Assembly: GCA_034509925.1 (NCBI GenBank) | Contig: CM067532.1 | Span: 5,102,142 to 5,166,141 of the forward strand | Direction of reading: 5' to 3' | From: Hirudinaria manillensis | Taxonomy: Eukaryota > Annelida > Clitellata > Hirudinida > Hirudinidae | DNA: 64,000 bases | In this document: piece after piece, positions 5,533-64,000 of the stretch | Position numbering within the stretch: position 1 is the first letter of the stretch | Layout: each line of letters starts with the position of its first letter | Program-made: the position numbers and the translations under genes | Notes under the pieces: model-generated | Seen by the model: the letters and a program-made list of their open reading frames with translations, nothing else | Databases searched by the model: none | Told to the model about the DNA's origin: nothing

Positions 5533-5575
<43 letters not shown>

Positions 5576-38929: not shown

Positions 38930-39426
38930 ATAGTGCGGTAAAACAACGGAGAGTTCCAGCTTATACAATTTCAAAAGGAAATGAATTTCCAAGGTTTTAT
39001 TATACTGCCGAAAAAGAATATTTAACGATATAAGATGAAAAGTTGTTGCTATATCCGAATTTGAAATAGTGGCCCCTTGTACTTGAATTATAACGAACTG
39101 AATAATGATTCAGGAGGTTTTTTATACTTTAATTGTTGCTTAACGGGCATTTTGTCTTTGAGAGAATGCATTGGCAACGCGATACAACGGTAATGGGCCT
39201 ATGAATTGTCCAAACTTACGAAAGTAAAGATGACTCATATCGATTTTCTTAGAAATGTGATTAAGCAACACCCGTCCTACAATCCTTTGCGTTAAAATAC
39301 AAAAAAGCCAACTATAGGATCGACACCATAAAAGTATTATTCATAACTTTGAATTTGTTATTTATAATGACATTAAAAATAGTATGTAAAAGTTTTATTT
39401 AATCCAAAAACACACTGAAGTAATTT
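38930..39426. repeat. Diverged left edge of the tandem array
   Basis: Sequence from about 38930 resembles, with substitutions and a missing internal part, the segment at 45553-45700 of unit 2's left flank. From 39131 it matches the 3' end and 3' flank of gene B (an extra non-coding copy, like 45937-46236). This is where array homology begins. Confidence 0.75.
39394..39399 (-). terminator. Polyadenylation signal of gene B1
   Basis: AATAAA on the minus strand, 28 bp past the B1 stop codon; conserved in the other units. Confidence 0.65.
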
Positions 39427-40479
39427 CTAACAAAAGTACATTTTATTGTGACACTCGCAAGTATTATCACAATAATATTGAATCTCCATATTATGTAAAT
39501 CGAGGGGAGGAAATGTCTTTCTCAGACTAACAAAATGTTTTTCATCGAAATTACATTTTTTAATGCTCCTTAATTGTTGCTTAACGGGCGCTTTATGTCT
39601 TTGAGGTAATGCATTGGTATCGCGACCATACAACAGTAATGAACATGTGAATTGTCCAAACTTACGAACGTAAATATGACTCAAATCGTTTCTCTTAGGA
39701 ACAAGATGAGGCAATACCTTCCAGCATGCCTTTAATTGAATATTTAGATATTCTATTATCTTGTCGGCATAGCTATTGTCCTCATCAATATTTACGCCGT
39801 CATTCGGTGAAATGATAAGACTAATAGAGAGATTAGGTAGCAAACAGGCAACTATAAGACTTTCCTTTCCTGTTCTTCCTTTTATCACTGCAAAATATCT
39901 GTTTTTTCTTATTAAATTACCCTGTTCTTCGTAGAGTCTCAAATTTAGATGAGTTATCCCTTTAATTCCCATATACTTCCTAAATGAAAGTAAGTCTGGC
40001 AATCTAATCACGAAGCCGACAAACCTCTTCCACTGATCGTCAAGATTCTCAAAGTATTTGTTGATTAAAGGATTATTAAGATGGCATAATTCATGGTAAC
40101 TTAATTTGTCCTTATCATAATTTTTGATCGGTGCGCTCAAAATTAATACCCGTTTAAATCCTTGTCGACAGATCGGACACAACTTCCATGTGGACTCTCC
40201 AACAACAAATATTTCATCATGACATCGTACGCATATTGAATGATCACATGGATGAAATTGGCACACCCTGGTTGAAACAACAGCGTCACAACAAATCGGA
40301 CATTCTAATTCATCGTCAAATTCTTTAGCCTCTGCTTCTATGAGCTTTCCTTCGCAAAATTCTAAATGGCAGTACTCAATCACACATTTAGAATTTGTTT
40401 CACTTCCTGGTGTTTCAACATCTGTCATCTCCTTATTTTTGTCCGACTCTTTGATATTTGCAATTTCTTCAATGTTCAT
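39427..40479 (-). CDS. RING-finger protein B1 (350 residues)
   Basis: Single-exon gene of the array, probably a ubiquitin E3 ligase or adaptor by its RING. The C3HC4 pattern is complete: Cys60, Cys63, Cys78, His80, Cys83, Cys86, Cys101, Cys104 (C-x2-C-x14-C-x-H-x2-C-x2-C-x14-C-x2-C). The first 55 residues are acidic and low-complexity. Residues 110-300 form a mixed alpha/beta-looking region I do not recognise (NPLINKYFENLDDQWKRFVG, YFAVIKGRTGKES). The C-terminus is Cys/His-rich (Cys337, Cys341, Cys343, His344, Cys350), possibly a second metal site. No membrane segment or signal peptide. An AATAAA lies just downstream. Upstream (900 bp) on the same strand is the 3' end of gene A1. Function beyond the RING is unknown. 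Confidence 0.85.
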   Translation of the reverse strand: MNIEEIANIKESDKNKEMTDVETPGSETNSKCVIEYCHLEFCEGKLIEAEAKEFDDELECPICCDAVVSTRVCQFHPCDHSICVRCHDEIFVVGESTWKLCPICRQGFKRVLILSAPIKNYDKDKLSYHELCHLNNPLINKYFENLDDQWKRFVGFVIRLPDLLSFRKYMGIKGITHLNLRLYEEQGNLIRKNRYFAVIKGRTGKESLIVACLLPNLSISLIISPNDGVNIDEDNSYADKIIEYLNIQLKACWKVLPHLVPKRNDLSHIYVRKFGQFTCSLLLYGRDTNALPQRHKAPVKQQLRSIKKCNFDEKHFVSLRKTFPPLDLHNMEIQYYCDNTCECHNKMYFC

Positions 40480-41382
40480 TTCTTAAGGAATGTATAATTT
40501 AGTTGCTTTCATAAATGAAGCATCCCATAAATTTTGCTATTACAATATCGTGGCCTTCGAAAATCAAAAACTGTTAATTGTTATATTTTATTACATCTTA
40601 TTTAAATAAAAATCTTTTTATATTTATATAAAAATATATTTTAGTTTTCTTTTATTAAGGTTCGGTCTTGTTTGACACAATGAGAGGAGCATACGGTATT
40701 CTATGTATTTACAACGTTCTCCTCGTTATCCAAGACTTTGTATGGGACTTGACATGTTGCCTCGATGGGTTTTGTGACCCTGTCGATTCTGAACAGAGCA
40801 CGTACAATGGCAGAGGATACAAATAGACATTATATTGAATCGCTTCTGTGAGAGGAATTAACAATAAATTCGTGAAAAGCCAATATTAATAGTTATTGCT
40901 GTGTTATTATTACTTTTAAAATAAAATGTAATGATTTGAATTTGTTGTTGTTGGGTAAACGCTATTAAATCATCTGCGAGGTTCCTAGATCTTTCAAAGG
41001 ATTGACGCGGCCTTTCAGGAAATTGTTTATTTTCCAAAGTTGTTAAGGAGAGAACACGTGAAATTAGATTTTCTTACTAAGCGCTAGGTGTAACCTTCTT
41101 AGCGATTACCAATGTAGCGAGTAAGTAAACAAGAAACTCGCAAGGCCGCCTCACAAAGATGCTAAATCACTTTCGCTATTTTGCAAATCACGCACGTTAC
41201 AGAATAATCGTAAGATTGCGAAAACTTGGCGTTAAATGCCGAGTGGATCAGTGATTTACTTATCACAACATTTCCAATTAATTACGGATTTTTTCCAAAT
41301 AGAAGAAACGAGTGTAGTTTAGGAGTTTCTAATAATAAGTGGTAATTTTATTCACAAATCCCTGATATAAGAATTGAAATTC
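40480..41382. other. Intergenic segment between A1 and B1
   Basis: About 900 bp, repeated in every unit (47724-48626, 54947-55849, 62170-63072). It includes short open frames such as a 69-codon minus frame (47899-48108 in unit 2) with no recognisable motif and no conserved start in unit 1. It is the likely site of the B promoter. An AATAAA on the minus strand at 41347-41352 follows the A1 stop codon. Confidence 0.6.
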
Positions 41383-44300
41383 TCAATAATTATAGTCGGT
41401 GAGATCATAAGCTTCGATATCCTCATCGTCGTCTTCGTCGTCATCGTCATCGTCGTCGTCCTCATCGTCGTCGTCTCCTAGACATTCAACGGTACCAAGT
41501 TCGCTGTCGTCATATGAATTACTATCCTCATCATCATCAGCGTTAAGAGAATCTTCAGCAAAGCCAAGGTTAACTTTGTCGTGCCCCTCATCGCAATCAT
41601 TATCATTACTGATGTCATCATCATAAGCCGTGACATCATCATCGAGGTCAGTGATGCCATCACCCTCACAAAATTCGTAATTGGACGAATATTCGATAGA
41701 GTATCGATCTCTTCGGTGCTGTCTGCAATTGATTATGAAGTACAGGATTTCTTCCTCAACCTTAAATATTGCAAGTATTTTATATTAAAAAACTCATACG
41801 ATATAAAATATATAGGCACATTAAATATCAAAATAATGTAAATAGTAATAACAATAGCGATGGCAACATGTGCCTGGTTAGATTATATATAAATTAATCC
41901 GTTAAGTTCTTTTGAATTTATGATTGAAAGATTATTTAAAATTGGTATTTGAATTTAAATTAACCTTGATTAATTTCTCTCCTTTCAACATTCTTATCAG
42001 AATTTCCATCCTTTCTTTGTCGCGGTAACACATGAATAAAAACGGACTAGGAGAGAAATGAAATTTTAGAAAAAATGTGTATACAAAATATCCAGTGGAA
42101 TAATTGGAATTACTGCAACTTAATTATGATAATAATTATTATTGCATCACTCACCATGTCCTCAACAGAAATTGAATGATCCAATGAACTCTGCCCCTTT
42201 TACGAGGACAAAGTAGAAAATTGTTCATGTACTTCACAATTGGCGAATGGTGTGGTCTGAAGATCTCAGCAAAGAGTCCCACAGGCGCTGTTTGTTGCTG
42301 AAATGAATGATAATAAAATGCTTATTCTATTATTATCTTAATAGTATTCAGTTTAAAATAATAGGGTTTATACAATGAATCGTGTTACTAAGAAATGCCT
42401 CGTAATATATATCATAATAGAAATATACTTACCGGAAATAATTCTTCATACATGAGCCAGGCATTGTGTACAATGTCGATGGCTTTCACACTCCTCATGA
42501 GATCATCAAAAAACAACACTTTATCGATTGTACACCTGTAATTATCTTCCTCGTCCATAATTTTGTTTAATTTCTCATTATTTTTGAAGTGTTTTTCCAT
42601 TAATTCTGCTGTCTCCTCTTTGAAACGTTGATAGGACAAGCATCGTTTACTTTTCATCATATATGGTTCGAATACATGATGATTATATTTTTCTAACTTT
42701 CTGAGGTGACTGTTTGGAACATTGTGGATAGTCTAGGATTTTAAAATTAACTCTTTATCATATTTTGTAGACCTACTTCATAATAACAAATACCAGTACG
42801 TATGTAAAACAATTTTAATCTAGGCATGCATAAATTATTGTTGAAATTATCTATGATTAATTTAAATATAAAATTATTGTAACTTCAATAGCATAATTAA
42901 ACAATGTTGCACATAATAATATTTTACACCTCTTGAATGTCTATGACGTGCTGCAAGAACGTATACACAACTAACTGCAAATCCGAAACCAGAGTAAATT
43001 CTGGCTGTTTAACATTTAAATGGTGATTAGGGTGGTATTCAACGCTTTCATAGTTTATGCCGTCAATGAAGATTCTCATCCTCTCTAATTTCTCTTCTTC
43101 TGTTTTTGCAGACAGGAAATAATGAAAGAGGTCATTGAAGTGAAAAATCACGGGATAAGGATCCTTATTCATCCCGGAATGGAAGAGGCAATAAATACAC
43201 TGTATATTTAATTGATTCTGTAACAAAAATTGGAAAGTAATTAAAAAGAAATTTGTGAAAAAGATCGAGCCATTATCATTGAAATCGTTAATAATGTTGT
43301 TGCTTTTTTTTTAACTAACCTTTTTTAATAAGGATGATCGATAGAACAAATAGGTACGGAGAGACCCATAAGGGGCGAATTCGGTACAAATTTTCACTTC
43401 TTGGAATATGGATCCGGCTAATTAGAATAAAACATGCATAAGCGTTATTTATTTTGTAGTTATTATTAAAATAATACATTTGAAAAGAAATAAATTGTAA
43501 TTAGTTAAGTAAGTCTTACATTGTTCTTTCAACCAACGCGTGATTCTTTTTCCAATCGGCTTTTGGACTTCGTTAAGTATTGTTAAGTTAAGCATCAACA
43601 TTAGTGGAAAGATATCTTCAATAGAATAAATTATTTAATAGGTTATATACATTTTAATATATCCTTCTATATCTTACGGTAATTTAATTCTCTATAAGAC
43701 ATCTAGTACTAATATGAATAATAATAATAATAATAATAATTGTGAGGTCTTACAGGGATGTGTTTCACTCGATTGATTGAAATATTCCAAGATGATTTCT
43801 TTATGTTTAGCGACAGCGACTTTCATCATTTTCAAAACTCTTTCGATGTTTCTTCGTGAGGTCACTAGGGACAACACTAATCTGTCATTAAATATTCATC
43901 GCGTTTTTAATCATATTTTAATCACACATTCATTTACTCTAATTTATCGAAAATGTCTAGCAAATTTAAAAAAGTGAATGATAAAAGTAAACTTAATTAT
44001 TACGGTTAATATACAGCATATTGTTATGACTTACTTTGATATTATTCTCTCATCTTCATGTTCAGCTTTGAATGAATCGTTTGAAGATTGCTCAATAAGT
44101 TGTAGATAGGTTGTATCCATCGACCTGTCGTTATTCTTGCCATCCTTAAACTACCCAAAAAAATGCATTTTTTACATTTGAAATTTTACTTAAAGTTCCA
44201 ACTTAATTAATTTTTCTTCGTTATGACATATTAATAATAGCATTAATGTAAGTGCTTAACTATTTTTGCAACAATTAAACTTTTACCAATTCATAGTATA

Positions 44301-45242
44301 TGTCGTTGTAACTCTTGAAGCAACTATTAGCTAGGAGCTTTACGGAATCTTCAGAACAGACTTCTGCGAAACAGCAAACGGCATATTATTGATAGTCCAT
44401 TACTTAAAGCCAATAATAATTATTGTAATATTATCCGACTTGTTCCAGATACGTCCACGTAGTCATTGTCACCGTAGATAATGTCATCGATTTCAAAAAG
44501 AGTCCTATCAGATACTTTCGGCAGAAGAGAGCTGAAGGTTAACAAATATATATATTTGTATGTTATTGTCAATGTTGCTGAGCCTTATTGACTCGTGAAA
44601 TGCAATTAAATGCATAGCAGGGCGTAGCTTCTAACCGACCTCAGATTTGTTGAGATTTTTCTGAAATATTCATAATTTTCATCTGGAACCTAAAAAATAT
44701 ACTTCTTAATTAATAAATATTAAATAACAAATTTGTTAACAAAGTCAGTTCCATCAAATCTTTCTTAATTTAAAAAATTACATTCGTTTAAACAAAAATG
44801 TTATATTAAACGATAAATTTTGAAAATTTAAATATAATTTAAGATGATTAATTTTCACCTTCCACCCTAAGTCTGATAGTTGGATGTGCAACAAATTCAA
44901 CTCTTCAATAACTTCTTCTGCGTGGGTAATTATTATTTTTTTAAATTTTAAGAACTAACACTCCAAAGATGTCGAACGTTGTATCTTTATGCAAATTCAA
45001 TTAATATAAACAAACATTTGTATCCAATTAGCACGTTTATAAATAAATTAACCAATATTCTTATTTATTTATTTAATCAAACCATTGCCGATAGAGCTAC
45101 CCATTTGTAGTTATTATCATTATTAAAAATAATTAGGCTGTTCATTCGATAGTTTAGCTTTATATTTGCGTAACACATAGTTATATTATTACAATGATAT
45201 TGCTCTCTTACCAGGTGAATTTTCAATAATTTCAGCTTGCAT
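41383..45242 (-). CDS. Array gene A1: 14-exon protein with acidic C-terminal tail (645 residues)
   Basis: Exons 5' to 3': 45212-45242, 44859-44917, 44640-44689, 44440-44531, 44287-44363, 44035-44150, 43754-43881, 43520-43615, 43320-43417, 42930-43217, 42433-42732, 42155-42297, 41965-42046, 41383-41760; 1938 nt, all phases compatible, no internal stop. The product looks helical and soluble (VIEELNLLHIQLSDLGWK; IFHFNDLFHYFLSAKTEEEK; SVKAIDIVHNAWLMYEELF; IVKYMNNFLLCPRKRGRVHW). The last exon (residues 521-645) becomes strongly acidic, ending with 19 Asp/Glu in a row before IEAYDLTDYNY. I do not recognise the family. Parts faintly recall the C-terminal helical region of USP9X/faf deubiquitinases, but no catalytic Cys or His box is present. 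The first two exons and the exon 4 donor are least certain. An AATAAA follows 31 bp past the stop. Confidence 0.7.
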
Positions 45243-46242
45243 GTTGCTGATTTAGCAATAAATTTTTGTGTCAATTTCTTTAGAAACACTCTCTTTCTTA
45301 ATTATTTCTGTGATAAAAATACGGCAGACCACTGCTTATTGATTGTCGAAAGATTTTAATAACTTTTGTAATAAAGTATTTTTATAATGATTTTATGACT
45401 ATTTCAAAAATAAACATCATTCGAATAATTCTTGTGTCTAAATAAACATTTTACATTTTAACATTTTAATTCGCACCTGGACTCATGATGACTAAAGATT
45501 ACTCATGAGTTTTTTGTGCTTAAAATATATAAATACCATGGCAAAAGTTGAATTCGGCCAATAAATCCAGTTCCAGCGTTTATTATTTCAAAATGAAGGA
45601 AATTCTTGCTATATCCGAAATTGAAATTGTGACCTCTTGTACTTCAATTATAGCGAACTGAATTACTAATCATGAGGATTTTCGGGACCAAGCCGTTTAG
45701 TATTTTGCAACATAACGTAAGGTCAGTTAGAAGGCGGCGTTAGGAGATGGAGAAGCTTCAGCCTGCCCAAGTAGGGATGCGATGTAAGGCATGGTATAGA
45801 TTTAATTGAAGGGAAATTTCTGAACCAGCCCATGACGTCGCTGTGGATTCCATCGGCATATTTAAATATAGGGAGGTAAAAAAATTTCTTTGTTATTAAC
45901 AAAATGTTTTTCATCGAAATTACATATTTATACCCTTTAACTGTTGCTAAACGGGAATTTTGTCTTTGAGAGAATGCATTGGCGTCACGGTAATTGGCCT
46001 ATGAATTGTCCAAACTTACGAAAATAAAGATGACTCATATCGATTTTCTTAGAAATGTGATTAAGCAACACCCGTCCTACAATCCTTTGCGTTAAAATAC
46101 AAAAAAGCCAACTATAAGATCGACACCATAAAAGTATTATTCATAACTTTGAATTTGTTATTGATAATGACATTAAAAATAGTATGTAAAAGTTTTATTT
46201 AATCCAAAAACACACTGAAGTAATTTCTAACAAAAGCACATT
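45243..46242. other. Segment upstream of A1: putative A promoter plus non-coding B 3' copy
   Basis: Repeated unchanged in units 2 and 3 (52466-53465, 59689-60688). From 45937 to 46236 it is a partial copy of the 3' end and 3' flank of gene B, broken by small deletions (the ACGCGATAC stretch is reduced). The part before that, 45243-45936, carries short frames without recognisable motifs and presumably the start region of gene A. Confidence 0.6.
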
Positions 46243-46515
46243 TTATTGGTGACACTCGCAAGTATTATCACAATAATATTGAATCTCCATATTATGTAAA
46301 TCGAGGGGAGGAAATGTCTTTCTCAGACTAACAAAATGTTTTTCATCGAAATTACATTTTTTAATACTCCTTAATTGTTGCTTAACGGGCGCTTTATGTC
46401 TTTGAGGTAATGCATTGGCAACGCGATACAACGGTAATGGGCCTATGAATTGTCCAAACTTACGAAAGTAAAGATGACTCATATCGATTTTCTTAGAAAT
46501 GTGATTAAGCAACAC
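46243..46515 (-). pseudogene. Truncated copy of gene B 3' end, unit 2
   Basis: A 90-codon frame corresponding to the last third of B (FGQF...ALPQRHKAPVKQQLRSIKK onwards), without the RING. A one-base insertion (TTGGTGACAC instead of TTGTGACAC) moves its stop so it ends ECHQ. It is part of a nested repeat of about 446 bp lying next to the full B gene. Probably non-functional, though it keeps a frame and a start codon. Confidence 0.7.
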
Positions 46516-46670
46516 CCGTCCTACAATCCTTTGCGTTAAAATACAAAAAAGCCAACTATAGGATCGACACCATAAAAGTATTATTCATAACTTTGAATTT
46601 GTTATTTATAATGACATTAAAAATAGTATGTAAAAGTTTTATTTAATCCAAAAACACACTGAAGTAATTT

Positions 46671-47723
46671 CTAACAAAAGTACATTTTATTGTGACACTC
46701 GCAAGTATTATCACAATAATATTGAATCTCCATATTATGTAAATCGAGGGGAGGAAATGTCTTTCTCAGACTAACAAAATGTTTTTCATCGAAATTACAT
46801 TTTTTAATGCTCCTTAATTGTTGCTTAACGGGCGCTTTATGTCTTTGAGGTAATGCATTGGTATAGCGACCATACAACAGTAATGAACATGTGAATTGTC
46901 CAAACTTACGAACGTAAATATGACTCAAATCGTTTCTCTTAGGAACAAGATGAGGCAATACCTTCCAGCATGCCTTTAATTGAATATTTAGATATTCTAT
47001 TATCTTGTCGGCATAGCTATTGTCCTCATCAATATTTACGCCGTCATTCGGTGAAATGATAAGACTAATAGAGAGATTAGGTAGCAAACAGGCAACTATA
47101 AGACTTTCCTTTCCTGTTCTTCCTTTTATCACTGCAAAATATCTGTTTTTTCTTATTAAATTACCCTGTTCTTCGTAGAGTCTCAAATTTAGATGAGTTA
47201 TCCCTTTAATTCCCATATACTTCCTAAATGAAAGTAAGTCTGGCAATCTAATCACGAAGCCGACAAACCTCTTCCACTGATCGTCAAGATTCTCAAAGTA
47301 TTTGTTGATTAAAGGATTATTAAGATGGCATAATTCATGGTAACTTAATTTGTCCTTATCATAATTTTTGATCGGTGCGCTCAAAATTAATACCCGTTTA
47401 AATCCTTGTCGACAGATCGGACACAACTTCCATGTGGACTCTCCAACAACAAATATTTCATCATGACATCGTACGCATATTGAATGATCACATGGATGAA
47501 ATTGGCACACCCTGGTTGAAACAACAGCGTCACAACAAATCGGACATTCTAATTCATCGTCAAATTCTTTAGCCTCTGCTTCTATGAGCTTTCCTTCGCA
47601 AAATTCTAAATGGCAGTACTCAATCACACATTTAGAATTTGTTTCACTTCCTGGTGTTTCAACATCTGTCATCTCCTTATTTTTGTCCGACTCTTTGATA
47701 TTTGCAATTTCTTCAATGTTCAT
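46671..47723 (-). CDS. RING-finger protein B2 (350 residues)
   Basis: Same gene as B1, one residue different (Asp287 to Tyr). The RING ligands Cys60, Cys63, Cys78, His80, Cys83, Cys86, Cys101 and Cys104 are all kept. It lies on the same strand upstream of A1 (1.4 kb) and downstream of A2 (about 900 bp). The frame is intact. Confidence 0.85.
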   Translation of the reverse strand: MNIEEIANIKESDKNKEMTDVETPGSETNSKCVIEYCHLEFCEGKLIEAEAKEFDDELECPICCDAVVSTRVCQFHPCDHSICVRCHDEIFVVGESTWKLCPICRQGFKRVLILSAPIKNYDKDKLSYHELCHLNNPLINKYFENLDDQWKRFVGFVIRLPDLLSFRKYMGIKGITHLNLRLYEEQGNLIRKNRYFAVIKGRTGKESLIVACLLPNLSISLIISPNDGVNIDEDNSYADKIIEYLNIQLKACWKVLPHLVPKRNDLSHIYVRKFGQFTCSLLLYGRYTNALPQRHKAPVKQQLRSIKKCNFDEKHFVSLRKTFPPLDLHNMEIQYYCDNTCECHNKMYFC

Positions 47724-48626
47724 TTCTTAAGGAGTGTATAATTTAGTTGCTTTCATAAATGAAGCATCTCATAAACTTTGCTATTACAATATCGTGGCCT
47801 TCGAAAATCAAAAACTGTTAATTGTTATATTTTATAACATCTTATTTGAATAAAAATCTTTTTATATTTAAATACAAATGTATTTTAGTTATCTTTTATT
47901 AAGGTTCGGTCTTGTTTGACACAATGAGAGGAGCATACGGTATTCTATGTATTTTCAACGTTTTCCTTGTGATCCAAGACTTTGTATGGGACTTGACATG
48001 GTGCCTCGATGGGTTTTGTGACCCCGTCGATTCTGAACAGAGCACGTACAATGGCAGAGGATACAAATAGACATTATATTGAATCGCTTCTGTGAGATGA
48101 ATTAACAATAAATTCGTGAAAAGCCAATATTAATAGTTATTGCTGTGTTATTATTACTTTTAAAATAAAATGTAATGATTTGAATTTGTTGTTGTTGGGT
48201 AAACGCTATTAAATCATCTGCGAGGTTCCTAGATCTTTCAAAGGATTGACGCGGCCTTTCAGGAAATTGTTTATTTTCCAAAGTTGTTAAGGAGAGAACA
48301 CGTGAAATTAGATTTTCTTACTAAGCGCTAGGTGTAACCTTCTTAGCGATTACCAATGTAGCGAGTAAGTAAACAAGAAACTCGCAAGGCCGCCTCACAA
48401 AGATGCTAAATCACTTTCGCTCCTTTGCAAATCACGCACGTTACAGAATAATCGTAAGATTGCGAAAACTTGGCGTTAAATGCCGAGTGGATCAGTGATT
48501 TACTTATCACAACATTTCCAATTAATTACGGATTTTTTCCAAATAGAAGAAACGAGTGTAGTTTAGGAGTTTCTAATAATAAGCGGTAATTTTATTCACA
48601 AATCTCTGATATATGAATTGAAATTC

Positions 48627-51600
48627 TCAATAATTATAGTCGGTGAGATCATAAGCTTCGATATCCTCATCGTCGTCGTCATCGTCGTCGTCCTCATCGT
48701 CGTCGTCTCCTAGACATTCAACGGTACCAAGTTCGCTGTCGTCATAGGAATTACTATCCTCATCATCATCAGCGTTAAGAGAATCTTCAGCAAAGCCAAG
48801 GTTAACTTTGTCGTGCTCCTCATCGCAATCATTATCATTACTGATGTCATCATCATAAGCCGTGACATCATCATCGAGGTCAGTGATGCCATCACCCTCA
48901 CAAAATTCGTAATTGGACGAATAGTTGATATAGTAAAGATCTCTTCGGTGCTGTCTGCAATTGATTAAGAAGTACAGGATTTCTTCCTCAACCTTAAATA
49001 ATGCAAGTATTTTATATTAAAAAAACTCATACGATATAAAAAATATAGGCACATTAAATATCAAAATAATGTAAATAGTAATAACAATAGCGATGGCAAC
49101 ATCTGCCTGGTTAGATTATATATAAATTAATCCGTTAAGTTCTTTTGAATTTATGATTGAAAGATTATTTAAAATTGGTATTTGAATTTAAATCAACCTT
49201 GATTAATTTCTCTCCTTTCAACATTCTTATCAGAATTTCCATCCTTGCTTTGTCGCGGTAACACATGAATAAAAACGGACTAGGAGAGAAATGAAATTTT
49301 AGAAAAAATGTGTATACAAAATATCCAGTGGAATAATTGGAATTACTGCAACTTAATTATGATAATAATTATTATTGCATCACTCACCATGTCCTCAACA
49401 GAAATTGAATGATCCAATGAACTCTGCCCCTTTTACGAGGACAAAGTAGAAAATTGTTCATGTACTTCACAATTGGCGAATAGTGTGGTCTGAAAATCTC
49501 AGCAAAGAGTCCCACAGGCGCTGTTTGTTGCTGAAATGAATGATAATAAACTGCTTATTCCATTATTATCTTAATAGTATTCAGTTTAAAATAATAGGGT
49601 TTATACAATGAATGATGTTACTAAGCAATGCCTCGTAATATATAGCATAATAGAAATATACCTACTGGAAATAATTCTTCATACATGAGCCAGGCATTGT
49701 GTACAATGTCGATGGCTTTCACACTCTTCATGAGATCATCAAAAAACAACACATTATCGATTGTACACCTGTAATTATCTTCCTCGTCCATAATTTTGTT
49801 TAATTTCTCATTATTTTTGAAGTGTTTTTCCATTAATTCTGCTGTCTCCTCTTTGAAACGTTGATAGGACAAGCATCGTTTACTTTTCATCATATATGGT
49901 TCGAATACATGATGATTATATTTTTCTAACTTTCTGAGGTGACTGTTTGGAACATTGTGGATAGTCTAGGATTTTAAAATTAACTCTTTATCATATTTTG
50001 TAGACCTACTTCATAATAACAATTACTATTACCTATCACAATTTTAATCTAGGTATGCATAAATTATTGTTGAAATTATCTATGATTAATTTAAATATAA
50101 AATTATTGTAACTTCAATAGCATAATTAAACAATGTTGCTATTGCACATAATAATATTTTTCACCTCTTCAATGTCTATGACGTGCTGCAAGAACGTTTT
50201 CACAACTAACTGCAACATCCAAACCAGAGTAATTTCTGGCTGTTTAACATTTAAATGATGATTAGGGTGGTATTCAACGCTTTGATGGTTCATGCCGTCA
50301 ATGAAGATTCTCATCCTCTCTAATTTCTCTTCTTCTGTTTTTGCAGACAGGAAATAATGAAAGAGGTCATTGAAGTGAAAAATCACGGGATAACGATCCA
50401 CTGCCATCACGGAATGGAAGAGACAATTAACATAAAGTATATTTAATCGTTTCTGTAAGAGAAATTGGAGATGAATTAACAATATATAAAAAAGATCAAG
50501 CCATTTTCGTTGAAATCGTTAATAATGTTGTTGCTTTTTTTTAACTAACCTTTTTTAATAAGGATGATCGATAGAACAAATAGACACGGAGCGGCCCATA
50601 CGGTGCGTAATCGGTACGAATTTCCACTTGTTGGAATATAGATCCGGCTAATTAGAATAAAACATGCATAAGCGTTATTTACTTTGTAGTTATTATTAAA
50701 ATAATACATTTGAAAATAAATAAATTGTAATTAGTTAAGTAAGTCTTACATTGTTCTTTCAACCAACGCGTGATTCTTTTTCCAATCGGCTTTTGGACTT
50801 CGTTAAGTTTTGTTAAGTTAAGCATCAACATTAGTGGGAAGATATCTTCAATAGAATAAATTATTTAATAAGTTATTTGCATTTTAATATACCCTTCTAT
50901 ATCTACGATAATTTAAGTCTCTATAAGACATCTAGTATTAATATGAATAATAATAATAATAATTGTGAGGTCTTACAGGGATGTGTTTCACTCGATTGAT
51001 TGAAATATTCCAAGATGATTTCTTTATGTTTAGCGACAGCGACTTTCATCATTTTCAAAACTCTTTCGATGTTTCTTCGTGAGGTCACTAGGGACAACAC
51101 TAATCTGTCATTAAATATTCATCGCGTTTTTAATCATATTTTAATCACACATTCATTTACTCTAATTTATCGAAAATGTCTAGCAAATTTAAAAAAGTGA
51201 ATGATAAAAGTAAACTTAATTATTACGGTTAATATACAGCATATTGTTATGACTTACTTTGATATTATTCTCTCATCTTCATGTTCAGCTTTGAATGAAT
51301 CGTTTGAAGATTGCTCAATAAGTTGTAGATAGGTTGTATCCATCGACCTGTCGTTATTCTTGCCATCCTTAAACTACCCAAAAAAATGCATTTTTTACAT
51401 TTGAAATTTTACTTAAAGTTCCAACTTAATTAATTTTTCTTCGTTATGACATATTAATAATAGCATTAATGTAAGTGCTTAACTATTTTTGCAACAATTA
51501 AACTTTTACCAATTCATAGTATATGTCGTTGTAACTCTTGAAGCAACTATTAGCTAGGAGCTTTACGGAATCTTCAGAACAGACTTCTGCGAAACAGCAA

Positions 51601-52465: not shown

Positions 52466-53465
52466 GTTGCTGATTTAGCAATAAATTTTTGTGTCAATTT
52501 CTTTAGAAACACTCTCTTTCTTAATTATTTCTGTGATAAAAATACGGCAGACCACTGCTTATTGATTGTCGAAAGATTTTAATAACTTTTGTAATAAAGT
52601 ATTTTTATAATGATTTTATGACTATTTCAAAAATAAACATCATTCGAATAATTCTTGTGTCTAAATAAACATTTTACATTTTAACATTTTAATTCGCACC
52701 TGGACTCATGATGACTAAAGATTACTCATGAGTTTTTTGTGCTTAAAATATATAAATACCATGGCAAAAGTTGAATTCGGCCAATAAATCCAGTTCCAGC
52801 GTTTATTATTTCAAAATGAAGGAAATTCTTGCTATATCCGAAATTGAAATTGTGACCTCTTGTACTTCAATTATAGCGAACTGAATTACTAATCATGAGG
52901 ATTTTCGGGACCAAGCCGTTTAGTATTTTGCAACATAACGTAAGGTCAGTTAGAAGGCGGCGTTAGGAGATGGAGAAGCTTCAGCCTGCCCAAGTAGGGA
53001 TGCGATGTAAGGCATGGTATAGATTTAATTGAAGGGAAATTTCTGAACCAGCCCATGACGTCGCTGTGGATTCCATCGGCATATTTAAATATAGGGAGGT
53101 AAAAAAATTTCTTTGTTATTAACAAAATGTTTTTCATCGAAATTACATATTTATACCCTTTAACTGTTGCTAAACGGGAATTTTGTCTTTGAGAGAATGC
53201 ATTGGCGTCACGGTAATTGGCCTATGAATTGTCCAAACTTACGAAAATAAAGATGACTCATATCGATTTTCTTAGAAATGTGATTAAGCAACACCCGTCC
53301 TACAATCCTTTGCGTTAAAATACAAAAAAGCCAACTATAAGATCGACACCATAAAAGTATTATTCATAACTTTGAATTTGTTATTGATAATGACATTAAA
53401 AATAGTATGTAAAAGTTTTATTTAATCCAAAAACACACTGAAGTAATTTCTAACAAAAGCACATT

Positions 53466-53738
53466 TTATTGGTGACACTCGCAAGTATTATCACAATAAT
53501 ATTGAATCTCCATATTATGTAAATCGAGGGGAGGAAATGTCTTTCTCAGACTAACAAAATGTTTTTCATCGAAATTACATTTTTTAATACTCCTTAATTG
53601 TTGCTTAACGGGCGCTTTATGTCTTTGAGGTAATGCATTGGCAACGCGATACAACGGTAATGGGCCTATGAATTGTCCAAACTTACGAAAGTAAAGATGA
53701 CTCATATCGATTTTCTTAGAAATGTGATTAAGCAACAC
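53466..53738 (-). pseudogene. Truncated copy of gene B 3' end, unit 3
   Basis: Identical in predicted product to the truncated copy at 46243-46515; lacks the RING. Confidence 0.7.
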
Positions 53739-53893
53739 CCGTCCTACAATCCTTTGCGTTAAAATACAAAAAAGCCAACTATAGGATCGACACCATAAAA
53801 GTATTATTCATAACTTTGAATTTGTTATTTATAATGACATTAAAAATAGTATGTAAAAGTTTTATTTAATCCAAAAACACACTGAAGTAATTT

Positions 53894-54946
53894 CTAACAA
53901 AAGTACATTTTATTGTGACACTCGCAAGTATTATCACAATAATATTGAATCTCCATATTATGTAAATCGAGGGGAGGAAATGTCTTTCTCAGACTAACAA
54001 AATGTTTTTCATCGAAATTACATTTTTTAATGCTCCTTAATTGTTGCTTAACGGGCGCTTTATGTCTTTGAGGTAATGCATTGGTATCGCGACCATACAA
54101 CAGTAATGAACATGTGAATTGTCCAAACTTACGAACGTAAATATGACTCAAATCGTTTCTCTTAGGAACAAGATGAGGCAATACCTTCCAGCATGCCTTT
54201 AATTGAATATTTAGATATTCTATTATCTTGTCGGCATAGCTATTGTCCTCATCAATATTTACGCCGTCATTCGGTGAAATGATAAGACTAATAGAGAGAT
54301 TAGGCAGCAAACAGGCAACTATAAGACTTTCCTTTCCTGTTCTTCCTTTTATCACTGCAAAATATCTGTTTTTTCTTATTAAATTTCCCTCTTCTTCGTA
54401 GAGTCTCAAATTTAAATGACTTATCCCTTTAATTCCCATATACTTCCTAAATGAAAGTAAGTCTGGCAATCTAATCACGAAGCCGACAAAACTCTTCCAC
54501 TGATCGTCAAGATTCTCAAAGTATTTGTTGATTAAAGGATTATTAAGATGGCATAATTCATGGTAACTTAATTTGTCCTTATCATAATTTTTGATCGGTG
54601 CGCTCAAAATTAATACCCGTTTAAATCCTTGTCGACAGATCGGACACAACTTCCACGTGGGCTCTCCAACAACAAATATTTCATCATGACATCGTACGCA
54701 TATTGAATGATCACATGGATGAAATTGGCACACCCTGGTTGAAACAACAGCGTCACAACAAATCGGACATTCTAATTCATCGTCAAATTCTTTAGCCTCT
54801 GCTTCTATGAGCTTTCCTTCGCAAAATTCTAAATGGCAGTACTCAATCACACATTTAGAATTTGTTTCACTTCCTGATGTTTCAACATCTGTCATCTCCT
54901 TATTTTTGTCCGACTCTTTGATATTTGCAATTTCTTCAATGTTCAT
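53894..54946 (-). CDS. RING-finger protein B3 (350 residues)
   Basis: Intact copy of B. Relative to B1 it has Pro24Ser, Ser96Pro, Arg152Ser, Thr176Ser and Gln186Glu; all eight RING ligands are unchanged. Ser96Pro falls between the sixth and seventh ligands and is shared with B4. Confidence 0.85.
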   Translation of the reverse strand: MNIEEIANIKESDKNKEMTDVETSGSETNSKCVIEYCHLEFCEGKLIEAEAKEFDDELECPICCDAVVSTRVCQFHPCDHSICVRCHDEIFVVGEPTWKLCPICRQGFKRVLILSAPIKNYDKDKLSYHELCHLNNPLINKYFENLDDQWKSFVGFVIRLPDLLSFRKYMGIKGISHLNLRLYEEEGNLIRKNRYFAVIKGRTGKESLIVACLLPNLSISLIISPNDGVNIDEDNSYADKIIEYLNIQLKACWKVLPHLVPKRNDLSHIYVRKFGQFTCSLLLYGRDTNALPQRHKAPVKQQLRSIKKCNFDEKHFVSLRKTFPPLDLHNMEIQYYCDNTCECHNKMYFC

Positions 54947-55849
54947 TTCTTAAGGAGTGTATAATTTAGTTGCTTTCATAAATGAAGCATCTCATAAACT
55001 TTGCTATTACAATATCGTGGCCTTCGAAAATCAAAAACTGTTAATTGTTATATTTTATAACATCTTATTTCAATAAAAATCTTTTTATATTTAAATAAAA
55101 ATGTATTTTAGTTTTCTTTTATTAAGGTTCGGTCTTGTTTGACACAATGAGAGGAGCATACGGTATTCTATGTATTTTCAACGTTTTCCTTGTGATCCAA
55201 GACTTTGTATGGGACTTGACATGGTGCCTCGATGGGTTTTGTGACCCCGTCGATTCTGAACAGAGCACGTACAATGGCAGAGGATACAAATAGACATTAT
55301 ATTGAATCGCTTCTGTGAGATGAATTAACAATAAATTCGTGAAAAGCCAATATTAATAGTTATTGCTGTGTTATTATTACTTTTAAAATAAAATGTAATG
55401 ATTTGAATTTGTTGTTGTTGGGTAAACGCTATTAAATCATCTGCGAGGTTCCTAGATCTTTCAAAGGATTGACGCGGCCTTTCAGGAAATTGTTTATTTT
55501 CCAAAGTTGTTAAGGAGAGAACACGTGAAATTAGATTTTCTTACTAAGCGCTAGGTGTAACCTTCTTAGCGATTACCAATGTAGCGAGTAAGTAAACAAG
55601 AAACTCGCAAGGCCGCCTCACAAAGATGCTAAATCACTTTCGCTCCTTTGCAAATCACGCACGTTACAGAATAATCGTAAGATTGCGAAAACTTGGCGTT
55701 AAATGCCGAGTGGATCAGTGATTTACTTATCACAACATTTCCAATTAATTACGGATTTTTTCCAAATAGAAGAAACGAGTGTAGTTTAGGAGTTTCTAAT
55801 AATAAGCGGTAATTTTATTCACAAATCTCTGATATATGAATTGAAATTC

Positions 55850-58800
55850 TCAATAATTATAGTCGGTGAGATCATAAGCTTCGATATCCTCATCGTCGTC
55901 GTCATCGTCGTCGTCCTCATCGTCGTCGTCTCCTAGACATTCAACGGTACCAAGTTCGCTGTCGTCATAGGAATTACTATCCTCATCATCATCAGCGTTA
56001 AGAGAATCTTCAGCAAAGCCAAGGTTAACTTTGTCGTGCTCCTCATCGCAATCATTATCATTACTGATGTCATCATCATAAGCCGTGACATCATCATCGA
56101 GGTCAGTGATGCCATCACCCTCACAAAATTCGTAATTGGACGAATAGTTGATATAGTAAAGATCTCTTCGGTGCTGTCTGCAATTGATTAAGAAGTACAG
56201 GATTTCTTCCTCAACCTTAAATAATGCAAGTATTTTATATTAAAAAAACTCATACGATATAAAAAATATAGGCACATTAAATATCAAAATAATGTAAATA
56301 GTAATAACAATAGCGATGGCAACATCTGCCTGGTTAGATTATATATAAATTAATCCGTTAAGTTCTTTTGAATTTATGATTGAAAGATTATTTAAAATTG
56401 GTATTTGAATTTAAATCAACCTTGATTAATTTCTCTCCTTTCAACATTCTTATCAGAATTTCCATCCTTGCTTTGTCGCGGTAACACATGAATAAAAACG
56501 GACTAGGAGAGAAATGAAATTTTAGAAAAAATGTGTATACAAAATATCCAGTGGAATAATTGGAATTACTGCAACTTAATTATGATAATAATTATTATTG
56601 CATCACTCACCATGTCCTCAACAGAAATTGAATGATCCAATGAACTCTGCCCCTTTTACGAGGACAAAGTAGAAAATTGTTCATGTACTTCACAATTGGC
56701 GAATAGTGTGGTCTGAAAATCTCAGCAAAGAGTCCCACAGGCGCTGTTTGTTGCTGAAATGAATGATAATAAACTGCTTATTCCATTATTATCTTAATAG
56801 TATTCAGTTTAAAATAATAGGGTTTATACAATGAATGATGTTACTAAGCAATGCCTCGTAATATATAGCATAATAGAAATATACCTACTGGAAATAATTC
56901 TTCATACATGAGCCAGGCATTGTGTACAATGTCGATGGCTTTCACACTCTTCATGAGATCATCAAAAAACAACACATTATCGATTGTACACCTGTAATTA
57001 TCTTCCTCGTCCATAATTTTGTTTAATTTCTCATTATTTTTGAAGTGTTTTTCCATTAATTCTGCTGTCTCCTCTTTGAAACGTTGATAGGACAAGCATC
57101 GTTTACTTTTCATCATATATGGTTCGAATACATGATGATTATATTTTTCTAACTTTCTGAGGTGACTGTTTGGAACATTGTGGATAGTCTAGGATTTTAA
57201 AATTAACTCTTTATCATATTTTGTAGACCTACTTCATAATAACAATTACTATTACCTATCACAATTTTAATCTAGGTATGCATAAATTATTGTTGAAATT
57301 ATCTATGATTAATTTAAATATAAAATTATTGTAACTTCAATAGCATAATTAAACAATGTTGCTATTGCACATAATAATATTTTTCACCTCTTCAATGTCT
57401 ATGACGTGCTGCAAGAACGTTTTCACAACTAACTGCAACATCCAAACCAGAGTAATTTCTGGCTGTTTAACATTTAAATGATGATTAGGGTGGTATTCAA
57501 CGCTTTGATGGTTCATGCCGTCAATGAAGATTCTCATCCTCTCTAATTTCTCTTCTTCTGTTTTTGCAGACAGGAAATAATGAAAGAGGTCATTGAAGTG
57601 AAAAATCACGGGATAACGATCCACTGCCATCACGGAATGGAAGAGACAATTAACATAAAGTATATTTAATCGTTTCTGTAAGAGAAATTGGAGATGAATT
57701 AACAATATATAAAAAAGATCAAGCCATTTTCGTTGAAATCGTTAATAATGTTGTTGCTTTTTTTTAACTAACCTTTTTTAATAAGGATGATCGATAGAAC
57801 AAATAGACACGGAGCGGCCCATACGGTGCGTAATCGGTACGAATTTCCACTTGTTGGAATATAGATCCGGCTAATTAGAATAAAACATGCATAAGCGTTA
57901 TTTACTTTGTAGTTATTATTAAAATAATACATTTGAAAATAAATAAATTGTAATTAGTTAAGTAAGTCTTACATTGTTCTTTCAACCAACGCGTGATTCT
58001 TTTTCCAATCGGCTTTTGGACTTCGTTAAGTTTTGTTAAGTTAAGCATCAACATTAGTGGGAAGATATCTTCAATAGAATAAATTATTTAATAAGTTATT
58101 TGCATTTTAATATACCCTTCTATATCTACGATAATTTAAGTCTCTATAAGACATCTAGTATTAATATGAATAATAATAATAATAATTGTGAGGTCTTACA
58201 GGGATGTGTTTCACTCGATTGATTGAAATATTCCAAGATGATTTCTTTATGTTTAGCGACAGCGACTTTCATCATTTTCAAAACTCTTTCGATGTTTCTT
58301 CGTGAGGTCACTAGGGACAACACTAATCTGTCATTAAATATTCATCGCGTTTTTAATCATATTTTAATCACACATTCATTTACTCTAATTTATCGAAAAT
58401 GTCTAGCAAATTTAAAAAAGTGAATGATAAAAGTAAACTTAATTATTACGGTTAATATACAGCATATTGTTATGACTTACTTTGATATTATTCTCTCATC
58501 TTCATGTTCAGCTTTGAATGAATCGTTTGAAGATTGCTCAATAAGTTGTAGATAGGTTGTATCCATCGACCTGTCGTTATTCTTGCCATCCTTAAACTAC
58601 CCAAAAAAATGCATTTTTTACATTTGAAATTTTACTTAAAGTTCCAACTTAATTAATTTTTCTTCGTTATGACATATTAATAATAGCATTAATGTAAGTG
58701 CTTAACTATTTTTGCAACAATTAAACTTTTACCAATTCATAGTATATGTCGTTGTAACTCTTGAAGCAACTATTAGCTAGGAGCTTTACGGAATCTTCAG

Positions 58801-59688
58801 AACAGACTTCTGCGAAACAGCAAACGGCATATTATTGATAGTCCATTACTTAAAGCCAATAATAATTATTGTAATATTATCCGACTTGTTCCAGATACGT
58901 CCACGTAGTCATTGTCACCGTAGATAATGTCATCGATTTCAAAAAGAGTCCTATCAGATACTTTCGGCAGAAGAGAGCTGAAGGTTAACAAATATATATA
59001 TTTGTATGTTATTGTCAATGTTGCTGAGCCTTATTGACTCGTGAAATGCAATTAAATGCATAGCAGGGCGTAGCTTCTAACCGACCTCAGATTTGTTGAG
59101 ATTTTTCTGAAATATTCATAATTTTCATCTGGAACCTAAAAAATATACTTCTTAATTAATAAATATTAAATAACAAATTTGTTAACAAAGTCAGTTCCAT
59201 CAAATCTTTCTTAATTTAAAAAATTACATTCGTTTAAACAAAAATGTTATATTAAACGATAAATTTTGAAAATTTAAATATAATTTAAGATGATTAATTT
59301 TCACCTTCCACCCTAAGTCTGATAGTTGGATGTGCAACAAATTCAACTCTTCAATAACTTCTTCTGCGTGGGTAATTATTATTTTTTTAAATTTTAAGAA
59401 CTAACACTCCAAAGATGTCGAACGTTGTATCTTTATGCAAATTCAATTAATATAAACAAACATTTGTATCCAATTAGCACGTTTATAAATAAATTAACCA
59501 ATATTCTTATTTATTTATTTAATCAAACCATTGCCGATAGAGCTACCCATTTGTAGTTATTATCATTATTAAAAATAATTAGGCTGTTCATTCGATAGTT
59601 TAGCTTTATATTTGCGTAACACATAGTTATATTATTACAATGATATTGCTCTCTTACCAGGTGAATTTTCAATAATTTCAGCTTGCAT
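55850..59688 (-). CDS. Array gene A3: acidic-tailed 14-exon protein
   Basis: Coding sequence indistinguishable from A2 in the exons compared (including the 15-residue acidic run and the altered KRLNILYVNCLF exon). Exon positions are those of A2 plus 7223. All frames are intact. Confidence 0.68.
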
Positions 59689-60688
59689 GTTGCTGATTTA
59701 GCAATAAATTTTTGTGTCAATTTCTTTAGAAACACTCTCTTTCTTAATTATTTCTGTGATAAAAATACGGCAGACCACTGCTTATTGATTGTCGAAAGAT
59801 TTTAATAACTTTTGTAATAAAGTATTTTTATAATGATTTTATGACTATTTCAAAAATAAACATCATTCGAATAATTCTTGTGTCTAAATAAACATTTTAC
59901 ATTTTAACATTTTAATTCGCACCTGGACTCATGATGACTAAAGATTACTCATGAGTTTTTTGTGCTTAAAATATATAAATACCATGGCAAAAGTTGAATT
60001 CGGCCAATAAATCCAGTTCCAGCGTTTATTATTTCAAAATGAAGGAAATTCTTGCTATATCCGAAATTGAAATTGTGACCTCTTGTACTTCAATTATAGC
60101 GAACTGAATTACTAATCATGAGGATTTTCGGGACCAAGCCGTTTAGTATTTTGCAACATAACGTAAGGTCAGTTAGAAGGCGGCGTTAGGAGATGGAGAA
60201 GCTTCAGCCTGCCCAAGTAGGGATGCGATGTAAGGCATGGTATAGATTTAATTGAAGGGAAATTTCTGAACCAGCCCATGACGTCGCTGTGGATTCCATC
60301 GGCATATTTAAATATAGGGAGGTAAAAAAATTTCTTTGTTATTAACAAAATGTTTTTCATCGAAATTACATATTTATACCCTTTAACTGTTGCTAAACGG
60401 GAATTTTGTCTTTGAGAGAATGCATTGGCGTCACGGTAATTGGCCTATGAATTGTCCAAACTTACGAAAATAAAGATGACTCATATCGATTTTCTTAGAA
60501 ATGTGATTAAGCAACACCCGTCCTACAATCCTTTGCGTTAAAATACAAAAAAGCCAACTATAAGATCGACACCATAAAAGTATTATTCATAACTTTGAAT
60601 TTGTTATTGATAATGACATTAAAAATAGTATGTAAAAGTTTTATTTAATCCAAAAACACACTGAAGTAATTTCTAACAAAAGCACATT

Positions 60689-60961
60689 TTATTGGTGACA
60701 CTCGCAAGTATTATCACAATAATATTGAATCTCCATATTATGTAAATCGAGGGGAGGAAATGTCTTTCTCAGACTAACAAAATGTTTTTCATCGAAATTA
60801 CATTTTTTAATACTCCTTAATTGTTGCTTAACGGGCGCTTTATGTCTTTGAGGTAATGCATTGGCAACGCGATACAACGGTAATGGGCCTATGAATTGTC
60901 CAAACTTACGAAAGTAAAGATGACTCATATCGATTTTCTTAGAAATGTGATTAAGCAACAC
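60689..60961 (-). pseudogene. Truncated copy of gene B 3' end, unit 4
   Basis: Third copy of the 90-codon B 3' fragment, same predicted product as at 46243-46515. Confidence 0.7.
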
Positions 60962-61116
60962 CCGTCCTACAATCCTTTGCGTTAAAATACAAAAAAGCCA
61001 ACTATAGGATCGACACCATAAAAGTATTATTCATAACTTTGAATTTGTTATTTATAATGACATTAAAAATAGTATGTAAAAGTTTTATTTAATCCAAAAA
61101 CACACTGAAGTAATTT

Positions 61117-62169
61117 CTAACAAAAGTACATTTTATTGTGACACTCGCAAGTATTATCACAATAATATTGAATCTCCATATTATGTAAATCGAGGGGAGG
61201 AAATGTCTTTCTCAGACTAACAAAATGTTTTTCATCGAAATTACATTTTTTAATGCTCCTTAATTGTTGCTTAACGGGCGCTTTATGTCTTTGAGGTAAT
61301 GCATTGGTATCGCGACCATACAACAGTAATGAACATGTGAATTGTCCAAACTTACGAACGTAAATATGACTCAAATCGTTTCTCTTAGGAACAAGATGAG
61401 GCAATACCTTCCAGCATGCCTTTAATTGAATATTTAAATATTCTATTTTCTTGTCGGCATAGCTATTGTCCGCATCAATATTTACGTCGTCATTCGGTGA
61501 AATGATAAGACTAATAGAGAGATTAGGTAGCAAACAGGCAACTATAATACTTTCCTCTCCTGTTCTTCCTTTTATCACTGCAAAATATCTGTTTTTTCTT
61601 ATTAAATTACCCTGTTCTTCGTAGAGTCTCAAATTTAGATGAGTTATCCCTTTAATTCCCATATACTTCCTAAATGAAAGTAAGTCTGGCAATCTAATCA
61701 CGAAGCCGACAAACCTCTTCCACTGATCGTCAAGATTCTCAAAGTATTTGTTGATTAAAGGATTATTAAGATGGCATAATTCATGGTAACTTAATTTGTC
61801 CTTATCATAATTTTTGATCGGTGCGCTCAAAATTAATACCCGTTTAAATCCTTGTCGACAGATCGGACACAACTTCCACGTGGGCTCTCCAACAACAAAT
61901 ATTTCATCATGACATCGTACGCATATTGAATGATCACATGGATGAAATTGGCACACCCTGGTTGAAACAACAGCGTCACAACAAATCGGACATTCTAATT
62001 CATCGTCAAATTCTTTAGCCTCTGCTTCTATGAGCTTTCCTTCGCAAAATTCTAAATGGCAGTACTCAATCACACATTTAGAATTTGTTTCACTTCCTGG
62101 TGTTTCAACATCTGTCATCTCCTTATTTTTGTCCGACTCTTTGATATTTGCAATTTCTTCAATGTTCAT
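61117..62169 (-). CDS. RING-finger protein B4 (350 residues)
   Basis: Intact copy of B. Relative to B1 it has Ser96Pro, Lys205Glu, Leu208Ile, Gly228Asp, Glu233Ala and Ile241Lys. The last five fall in a 37-residue stretch of the unknown central domain, the densest cluster of changes among the B copies. The RING is unchanged apart from residue 96. Confidence 0.85.
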   Translation of the reverse strand: MNIEEIANIKESDKNKEMTDVETPGSETNSKCVIEYCHLEFCEGKLIEAEAKEFDDELECPICCDAVVSTRVCQFHPCDHSICVRCHDEIFVVGEPTWKLCPICRQGFKRVLILSAPIKNYDKDKLSYHELCHLNNPLINKYFENLDDQWKRFVGFVIRLPDLLSFRKYMGIKGITHLNLRLYEEQGNLIRKNRYFAVIKGRTGEESIIVACLLPNLSISLIISPNDDVNIDADNSYADKKIEYLNIQLKACWKVLPHLVPKRNDLSHIYVRKFGQFTCSLLLYGRDTNALPQRHKAPVKQQLRSIKKCNFDEKHFVSLRKTFPPLDLHNMEIQYYCDNTCECHNKMYFC

Positions 62170-63072
62170 TTCTTAAGGAGTGTATAATTTAGTTGCTTTC
62201 ATAAATGAAGCATCTCATAAACTTTGCTATTACAATATCGTGGCCTTCGAAAATCAAAAACTGTTAATTGTTATATTTTATAACATCTTATTTGAATAAA
62301 AATCTTTTTATATTTAAATACAAATGTATTTTAGTTATCTTTTATTAAGGTTCGGTCTTGTTTGACACAATGAGAGGAGCATACGGTATTCTATGTATTT
62401 TCAACGTTTTCCTTGTGATCCAAGACTTTGTATGGGACTTGACATGGTGCCTCGATGGGTTTTGTGACCCCGTCGATTCTGAACAGAGCACGTACAATGG
62501 CAGAGGATACAAATAGACATTATATTGAATCGCTTCTGTGAGATGAATTAACAATAAATTCGTGAAAAGCCAATATTAATAGTTATTGCTGTGTTATTAT
62601 TACTTTTAAAATAAAATGTAATGATTTGAATTTGTTGTTGTTGGGTAAACGCTATTAAATCATCTGCGAGGTTCCTAGATCTTTCAAAGGATTGACGCGG
62701 CCTTTCAGGAAATTGTTTATTTTCCAAAGTTGTTAAGGAGAGAACACGTGAAATTAGATTTTCTTACTAAGCGCTAGGTGTAACCTTCTTAGCGATTACC
62801 AATGTAGCGAGTAAGTAAACAAGAAACTCGCAAGGCCGCCTCACAAAGATGCTAAATCACTTTCGCTCCTTTGCAAATCACGCACGTTACAGAATAATCG
62901 TAAGATTGCGAAAACTTGGCGTTAAATGCCGAGTGGATCAGTGATTTACTTATCACAACATTTCCAATTAATTACGGATTTTTTCCAAATAGAAGAAACG
63001 AGTGTAGTTTAGGAGTTTCTAATAATAAGCGGTAATTTTATTCACAAATCTCTGATATATGAATTGAAATTC

Positions 63073-64000
63073 TCAATAATTATAGTCGGTGAGATCATAA
63101 GCTTCGATATCCTCATCGTCGTCGTCATCGTCGTCGTCCTCATCGTCGTCGTCTCCTAGACATTCAACGGTACCAAGTTCGCTGTCGTCATAGGAATTAC
63201 TATCCTCATCATCATCAGCGTTAAGAGAATCTTCAGCAAAGCCAAGGTTAACTTTGTCGTGCTCCTCATCGCAATCATTATCATTACTGATGTCATCATC
63301 ATAAGCCGTGACATCATCATCGAGGTCAGTGATGCCATCACCCTCACAAAATTCGTAATTGGACGAATAGTTGATATAGTAAAGATCTCTTCGGTGCTGT
63401 CTGCAATTGATTAAGAAGTACAGGATTTCTTCCTCAACCTTAAATAATGCAAGTATTTTATATTAAAAAAACTCATACGATATAAAAAATATAGGCACAT
63501 TAAATATCAAAATAATGTAAATAGTAATAACAATAGCGATGGCAACATCTGCCTGGTTAGATTATATATAAATTAATCCGTTAAGTTCTTTTGAATTTAT
63601 GATTGAAAGATTATTTAAAATTGGTATTTGAATTTAAATCAACCTTGATTAATTTCTCTCCTTTCAACATTCTTATCAGAATTTCCATCCTTGCTTTGTC
63701 GCGGTAACACATGAATAAAAACGGACTAGGAGAGAAATGAAATTTTAGAAAAAATGTGTATACAAAATATCCAGTGGAATAATTGGAATTACTGCAACTT
63801 AATTATGATAATAATTATTATTGCATCACTCACCATGTCCTCAACAGAAATTGAATGATCCAATGAACTCTGCCCCTTTTACGAGGACAAAGTAGAAAAT
63901 TGTTCATGTACTTCACAATTGGCGAATAGTGTGGTCTGAAAATCTCAGCAAAGAGTCCCACAGGCGCTGTTTGTTGCTGAAATGAATGATAATAAACTGC
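63073..64000 (-). CDS. Array gene A4, 3' part only (cut by window end)
   Basis: Last exon 63073-63438 (acidic tail, 15-residue run as in A2), the preceding exon near 63650-63730, and the next exon near 63832-63977. The remaining exons lie beyond the window. The sequence follows A2/A3. Confidence 0.65.

Follow-up and report, generated by a model that had tools for sequence, protein, structure and literature searches.

A recent, intact and real tandem array of two genes, named A and B, is present in the genome of the medicinal leech Hirudinaria manillensis. It was analysed in a stretch of 64 kb (C7:5102142-5166141), which is called the window here. The amplification is an ordinary event of a known kind, and the proteins encoded by A and B are apparently undescribed. 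Most likely, a block that contained both genes by chance was amplified by unequal recombination and its copies were mixed by gene conversion; under this explanation B is probably a RING E3 enzyme and joint action of A and B is unsupported.

The repeat structure was determined by self-comparison of the window. This revealed a repeat offset of 7223 bp (12,488 shared 24-mer pairs) and additional offsets of 7244 bp at 39165-41433 and of 7233 bp at 41810-42789. Blocks of 300 bp are repeated 3 to 7 times in the window and show 88-99% identity to the reference copy. The first-pass annotation had described at least 3.4 units with periods of 7244, 7223 and 7223 bp, starting at position 38930. The repeat itself and the periods, which are close to the offsets found, were recovered; the extent was not, as the array consists of about five units with degenerate ends and the homology starts at 39118, the left array boundary. 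On the right side homology was observed up to 70133 and, after a 1.77-kb insertion, again at 71905-76363 (positions above 64000 are window-continued coordinates taken from the neighbouring DNA). The array contains the near-identical RING genes B1-B5, the diverged copy B6 beyond the array homology, five 14-exon A genes and one A relic. In the direction of minus-strand transcription their order is B6-A5-B5-A4-B4-A3-B3-A2-B2-A1-B1, followed by the relic. The features are:

37997..38165 (-): A-gene relic outside the left array boundary, its DNA 71-72% identical over 187 aligned columns
39118..64000 (-): tandem array within the window, units of 7240, 7223 and 7223 bp plus a part unit, continuing beyond the window to 70133
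39427..40479 (-): B1, single-exon RING gene, 350 aa (basis: open reading frame, C3HC4 pattern and Arg after the last ligand)
41383..45242 (-): A1, 14 exons, 645 aa, acidic C-terminal tail (basis: exon phases, splice sites and an aligned single-frame paralogue)
43159..43410 (-): diverged patch of A1, comprising exon 9, intron 9 and the start of exon 10
45874..46077 (-): second B 3'-end fragment, decayed, three stops; repeated at 53097-53300 and 60320-60523
46246..46521 (-): partial copy of the B 3' end downstream of B2, 79% protein identity; repeated at 53469-53744 and 60692-60967
46671..47723 (-): B2, RING gene, 350 aa
48627..52465 (-): A2, 14 exons, 641 aa
53894..54946 (-): B3, RING gene, 350 aa
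55850..59688 (-): A3, 14 exons, coding sequence the same as that of A2
61117..62169 (-): B4, RING gene, 350 aa; bases 585-750 of the coding sequence are the same as in B6 (putative conversion tract)
63073..64000 (-): A4, 3' part with exons 12-14, rest of the gene past the window
within 71905-76363, beyond the window: A5, fifth A copy
79254-80291, beyond the window: B6, diverged, 345 codons

The 1.77-kb insertion is flanked by a 168-bp duplication of unit sequence with 98.8% identity. Judged by eye, frames inside it resemble a copia-type retrotransposon, with zinc knuckle and integrase-like stretches.

Over approximately 7.2 kb, 13 substitutions were counted between U2 and U3, 12 between U2 and U4 and 19 between U3 and U4 (99.7-99.8% mutual identity), and 121 substitutions plus 10 gaps between U1 and U2. 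According to our own arithmetic the B coding sequence accounts for 10, 9 and 13 of the substitutions in the first three comparisons; another 3, 0 and 3 are located just upstream of it and 0, 3 and 3 at a single spot near the far end of U4. Thus, the earlier statement that the copies are not identical applies to the units (12-121 substitutions per pair), but not to the coding sequences of A2, A3 and A4, which are mutually identical. Such identity among U2-U4 and among these coding sequences would also fit an artefact in which the assembly contains more units than the animal. We regard this as very improbable. The copies carry distinct shared haplotypes and tracts, the two array ends are degenerate and unlike each other, and the HiFi reads have an average length of 18.73 kb, which is more than two units (PMC10671345, available part). 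The first-pass annotation had likewise considered an exact duplication by the assembly unlikely, and the distinct haplotypes, tracts and ends agree with this. It had also reported intact frames in every complete copy, and these were indeed found open in 5 of 5 A copies and 6 of 6 B copies. Scans of the window with Rfam and for tRNA genes yielded no match.

Gene A encodes 645 codons in A1, 641 in A2-A4 and 650 in A5. The exon phases are compatible, and all 13 introns show GT-AG borders in all five copies. The donor of exon 4 was chosen by us; by eye, another GT in the same phase is located 33 bases upstream. The exon set is supported in general by a paralogue at C9:2478551-2479864, since this single open frame of 475 codons aligns along A (30% identity, gapped). 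The paralogue lacks the acidic tail that the A members of the array carry. Searches of A against Pfam, NCBIfam and PDB gave no significant match. Pfam DUF6937 (E 0.008) stayed below its cut-off and was rejected, and the one NCBIfam match (E 0.054) was insignificant. For B2 and the A paralogue there was no match in NCBIfam, nothing in PADLOC and no relative among viral contigs, for which such single-protein scans are sensitive to close relatives only. Phage records contained no relative of B2.

Gene B is represented by an open frame of 350 codons in all four copies of the window and in B5. In all six copies, the eight zinc ligands of a RING are present in C3HC4 order and spacing and are followed by an Arg residue. 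The pattern is C-x2-C-x14-C-x1-H-x2-C-x2-C-x14-C-x2-C with the end C-P-x-C-R. Since all eight ligands are found in 6 of 6 copies, B probably is a RING E3 ubiquitin ligase. It resembles RING-type E3 ubiquitin ligases of the C3HC4 class in ligand spacing and in the C-P-x-C-R end, and the best-scoring solved RING by sequence was that of TRIM21 (E 7.9e-5). In contrast to typical RING E3s, the Pfam zf-RING_2 score of B2, the only copy scored, was 20.6 bits (E 5.5e-4) and therefore below the gathering cut-off of 27.3. B also differs from RING E3 and TRIM proteins in its further domains. No B-box or PRY-SPRY was matched in B2 by Pfam at E values up to 1, and a B-box was also absent from the Pfam matches of 23 C-terminal family members. 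The C-terminal part of about 230 residues is conserved in the family, with 15 invariant columns among 23 sequences. It has no convincing Pfam or PDB match: Pfam gave none for B2 and weak, scattered ones for other members (E 0.02 at best, each occurring in 2 of the 23 sequences at most), and the only PDB match had an E value of 0.46, which is chance level. Apart from the RING, PDB searches returned either nothing or matches at chance level. An AlphaFold model of B calculated from one sequence reached a pLDDT of 33.6 and was unusable.

The copies of the array are mosaics. B4 is unlike B1, B2, B3 and B5 at six codons (205-245), and at all six it equals B6. The identical tract of B4 and B6 spans 166 bp, whereas the other four copies share at most 60 bp with B6. 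When the B4-B6 mismatches were placed uniformly, none of 20,000 placements produced a tract as long; this null is crude, as B1 and B2 reach 0.023 with a 60-bp tract inside the same low-divergence part. A second haplotype is common to B3 and B5 and missing from B1, B2 and B4; outside the array no closer sequence was found as its donor. Between A1 and A2 there are zero differences from 43723 to 45300, and exon 9 and intron 9 diverge by 12% each, exon 10 by 9%. The stretch 43150-43420 of A1 shows 84% identity to the other A copies, and the genome contained no closer match as a donor of the patch. Mosaic tracts such as the 166 bp common to B4 and B6 lead us to infer that gene conversion mixed the array copies. 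Unit number and tracts are given as read from the assembly, for which a Merqury quality of 33.53 is stated (PMC10671345, available part). By our own arithmetic this corresponds to roughly 3 errors per unit, so isolated differences, for example at B2 codon 287, may be errors.

The copies might also be non-functional duplicates of a decaying array which are still unbroken. The whole-sequence dN/dS values of the A copies (0.69-0.84, with wide bounds that include 1) and the decayed B 3'-end fragments adjoining the genes are in line with such a decay. We nevertheless hold it to be improbable. Five A and six B copies are free of stops, and pairs of A1, A2 and A5 differ by 6-8 indels in introns and by one, in frame, in exons. 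Among 2,000 simulated sequences carrying random substitutions, the share that stayed free of stops was only 4.65% for A with 68 changes and 0.2% for B with 141. Codons 1-110 of B2-B6, which comprise the N-terminus and the RING, look constrained with a dN/dS of 0.47 (bootstrap share at or above 1, 0.012). For the C-terminal part of B2-B6 the value was 0.84 and indistinguishable from 1. Across all copies tested whole, dN/dS was 0.65-0.84 and not significantly above 1. The frames of A are maintained, and dN/dS supports neither strong constraint nor positive selection on them.

In order to follow both genes beyond the array, 148,429,096 bases on 23 contigs were searched. The published H. manillensis genome comprises 22 scaffolds with 148.59 Mb, 13 chromosomes and a mitochondrion of 15,581 bp, obtained from HiFi and Hi-C data (PMC10671345, available part). 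On contig C23 (15,581 bp), frames identified by eye as cox2, cox3 and nad6, the latter two separated by tRNA-Gln, and an LSU rRNA with tRNA-Ser, nad1 and nad3 after it are arranged as in annelid mitochondria. The search with B scored 104 of 104 first-look candidates and resulted in 85 rows, namely 14 in the array (6 full copies and 8 fragments), 52 places outside and 19 rows that were dropped as additional exons or parts of places already counted. The search with A, which scored the best 78 of 223 first-look candidates, resulted in 108 rows, namely 58 in the array, 37 places outside and 13 dropped as further exons; the A counts are lower bounds (at least 37 places). Some of the outside places of both genes are weak or contain stops, and the RING was verified in the six array copies of B. 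The A and B places outside the array that lie closest to each other are 440,959 bp apart (at least 37 A and at least 52 B places, this genome only); thus, none of the 37 A places has one of the 52 B places closer than 440 kb. On contigs without a B place 29 of the 37 A places were found. Both families also form separate arrays or clusters, and in the protein searches, whose counts are lower bounds, the other A arrays showed no B match. In the A cluster at C9 8.617-8.656 Mb three of seven spacings are 5.40-5.45 kb, and the others connect matches to different exons or are wider. A places on C4 are spaced by 5.3-5.5 kb, five on one strand and then four on the other. Judged by match positions, these opposite-strand sets (C4:1904273-1986857, about 45 kb between them) form a palindromic double array. 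A belongs to one dispersed family and B to another, and these searches found no linkage between the two elsewhere in the genome.

These data bear on the proposal that A and B form a functional pair, for instance an E3 and its substrate or adaptor, co-amplified for dosage or conflict. Such a pair would be consistent with the open frames of every complete copy and with the same strand and order of A and B in each unit. Exonic divergence in A equals or exceeds that of introns plus short flanks (A1-A2, 56/1926 versus 42/2047 differences; A2-A5, 43/1926 versus 23/2042), and exons 9-10 of the A1-A2 patch show a dN of 0.111 and a dS of 0.099, a raw ratio of about 1.1. However, divergence in intron 9 reaches that of the patch exons, so selection need not lie behind the patch. 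The bounds of the whole-sequence dN/dS of A include 1, the distance of at least 440 kb separates the two families outside the array, and both form separate arrays or clusters. We therefore judge a functional pair to be quite unlikely. The first-pass annotation had spoken of a ubiquitin-related pair. As a dedicated pair this was not supported, given the genome-wide positions and the restriction of the RING to B; as a description of the genes it suits B only. The protein searches it had proposed assigned B to the RING proteins and left A without a significant match in Pfam, NCBIfam and PDB.

According to the chance-block explanation, which we prefer, unequal recombination would have multiplied a chromosomal block in which a member of one multigene family sat beside a member of another, unrelated one, and A and B would be neighbours by happenstance. 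Gene conversion would partly homogenise and partly diversify the copies. B would work as a RING E3 ubiquitin ligase, and its C-terminal domain would bind a partner.

The origin of the single-exon structure of B was addressed with a tree of 23 C-terminal domains, taken from B2, B6 and a selection of 21 among the 52 outside places. In this tree B2 and B6 cluster with each other (100/99) and are nested in a set of six (100/99) with L018, one L014 copy and two L012 copies. In 11 of 14 B relatives a short GT-AG candidate intron was detected near residue 88, and its removal restored, by eye, a RING-like reading. No clear candidate was seen in both L012 copies and in one L014 copy among these 14. Within the clade of six, L018 and one L014 copy carry a clear candidate intron and B2 and B6 do not; therefore, an intron loss in B is likely, but not firm. 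An imprecise deletion may fit this loss better than a retrocopy, because the sixth and seventh ligands of B6 are separated by 14 residues, compared to 10-11 in L018 and L014 (by eye).

Tandem genes have been described in leeches before. Bloodsucking leeches carry tandem GLB3 genes, with seven or eight copies in H. manillensis and Hirudo nipponia, and the authors connected these copies to blood feeding (PMC10087013, available part). The A-B array resembles GLB3 as a case of tandem copies in a leech, but concerns different genes. Among the literature matches listed there was no paper on the array or on the A and B families. The words ring, c3hc4 and ubiquitin are absent from the available part of the genome paper (PMC10671345), and ubiquitin is absent from that of PMC10087013.

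With regard to its architecture, the array shares tandem copies, mosaic tracts, decayed ends and dispersed relatives with the TRIM, NLR and plant resistance gene clusters, which are lineage-specific tandem families shaped by birth-and-death evolution and gene conversion. In contrast to these clusters it consists of a block of two unrelated genes. By analogy, family B, with its roughly 50 loci, could be a repertoire of putative RING ligases specific to leeches and an invertebrate equivalent of the expanded TRIM or NLR repertoires; its C-terminal recognition domain would be varied by conversion between tandem copies for defence against viruses or mobile elements, with A as a co-amplified partner. 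We consider this tentative reading rather unlikely. If true, leeches would offer a system for studying the diversification of ubiquitin ligase repertoires. The array clearly illustrates mosaic tracts in tandem RING genes, the copies being readily distinguished. Furthermore, it adds two medicinal-leech gene families which, the RING of B excepted, have no convincing match in the searched libraries.

Several other features were noted in the window and its surroundings. Close to the left array edge a relic at 38387-38852 (+) consists of two overlapping frames which, by eye, resemble a PIF1-like helicase of the Helitron type. Exons at about 5150-13534 (+) resemble RPTOR (Raptor), and pieces at 23168-24585 (+) a Gypsy-type gag and reverse transcriptase/RNase H (both by eye; the first Gypsy frame has no Pfam match). 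A piece of an UNC80-like gene is located at 36010-37056 (-) (Pfam UNC80_N, E 7.4e-21), and adjacent frames to its left and right may be further parts of that gene. On the right array flank a SET-domain frame, SETD4-like by eye, was found at L011:1081-1851 (+), corresponding to 85081-85851 in window-continued coordinates.
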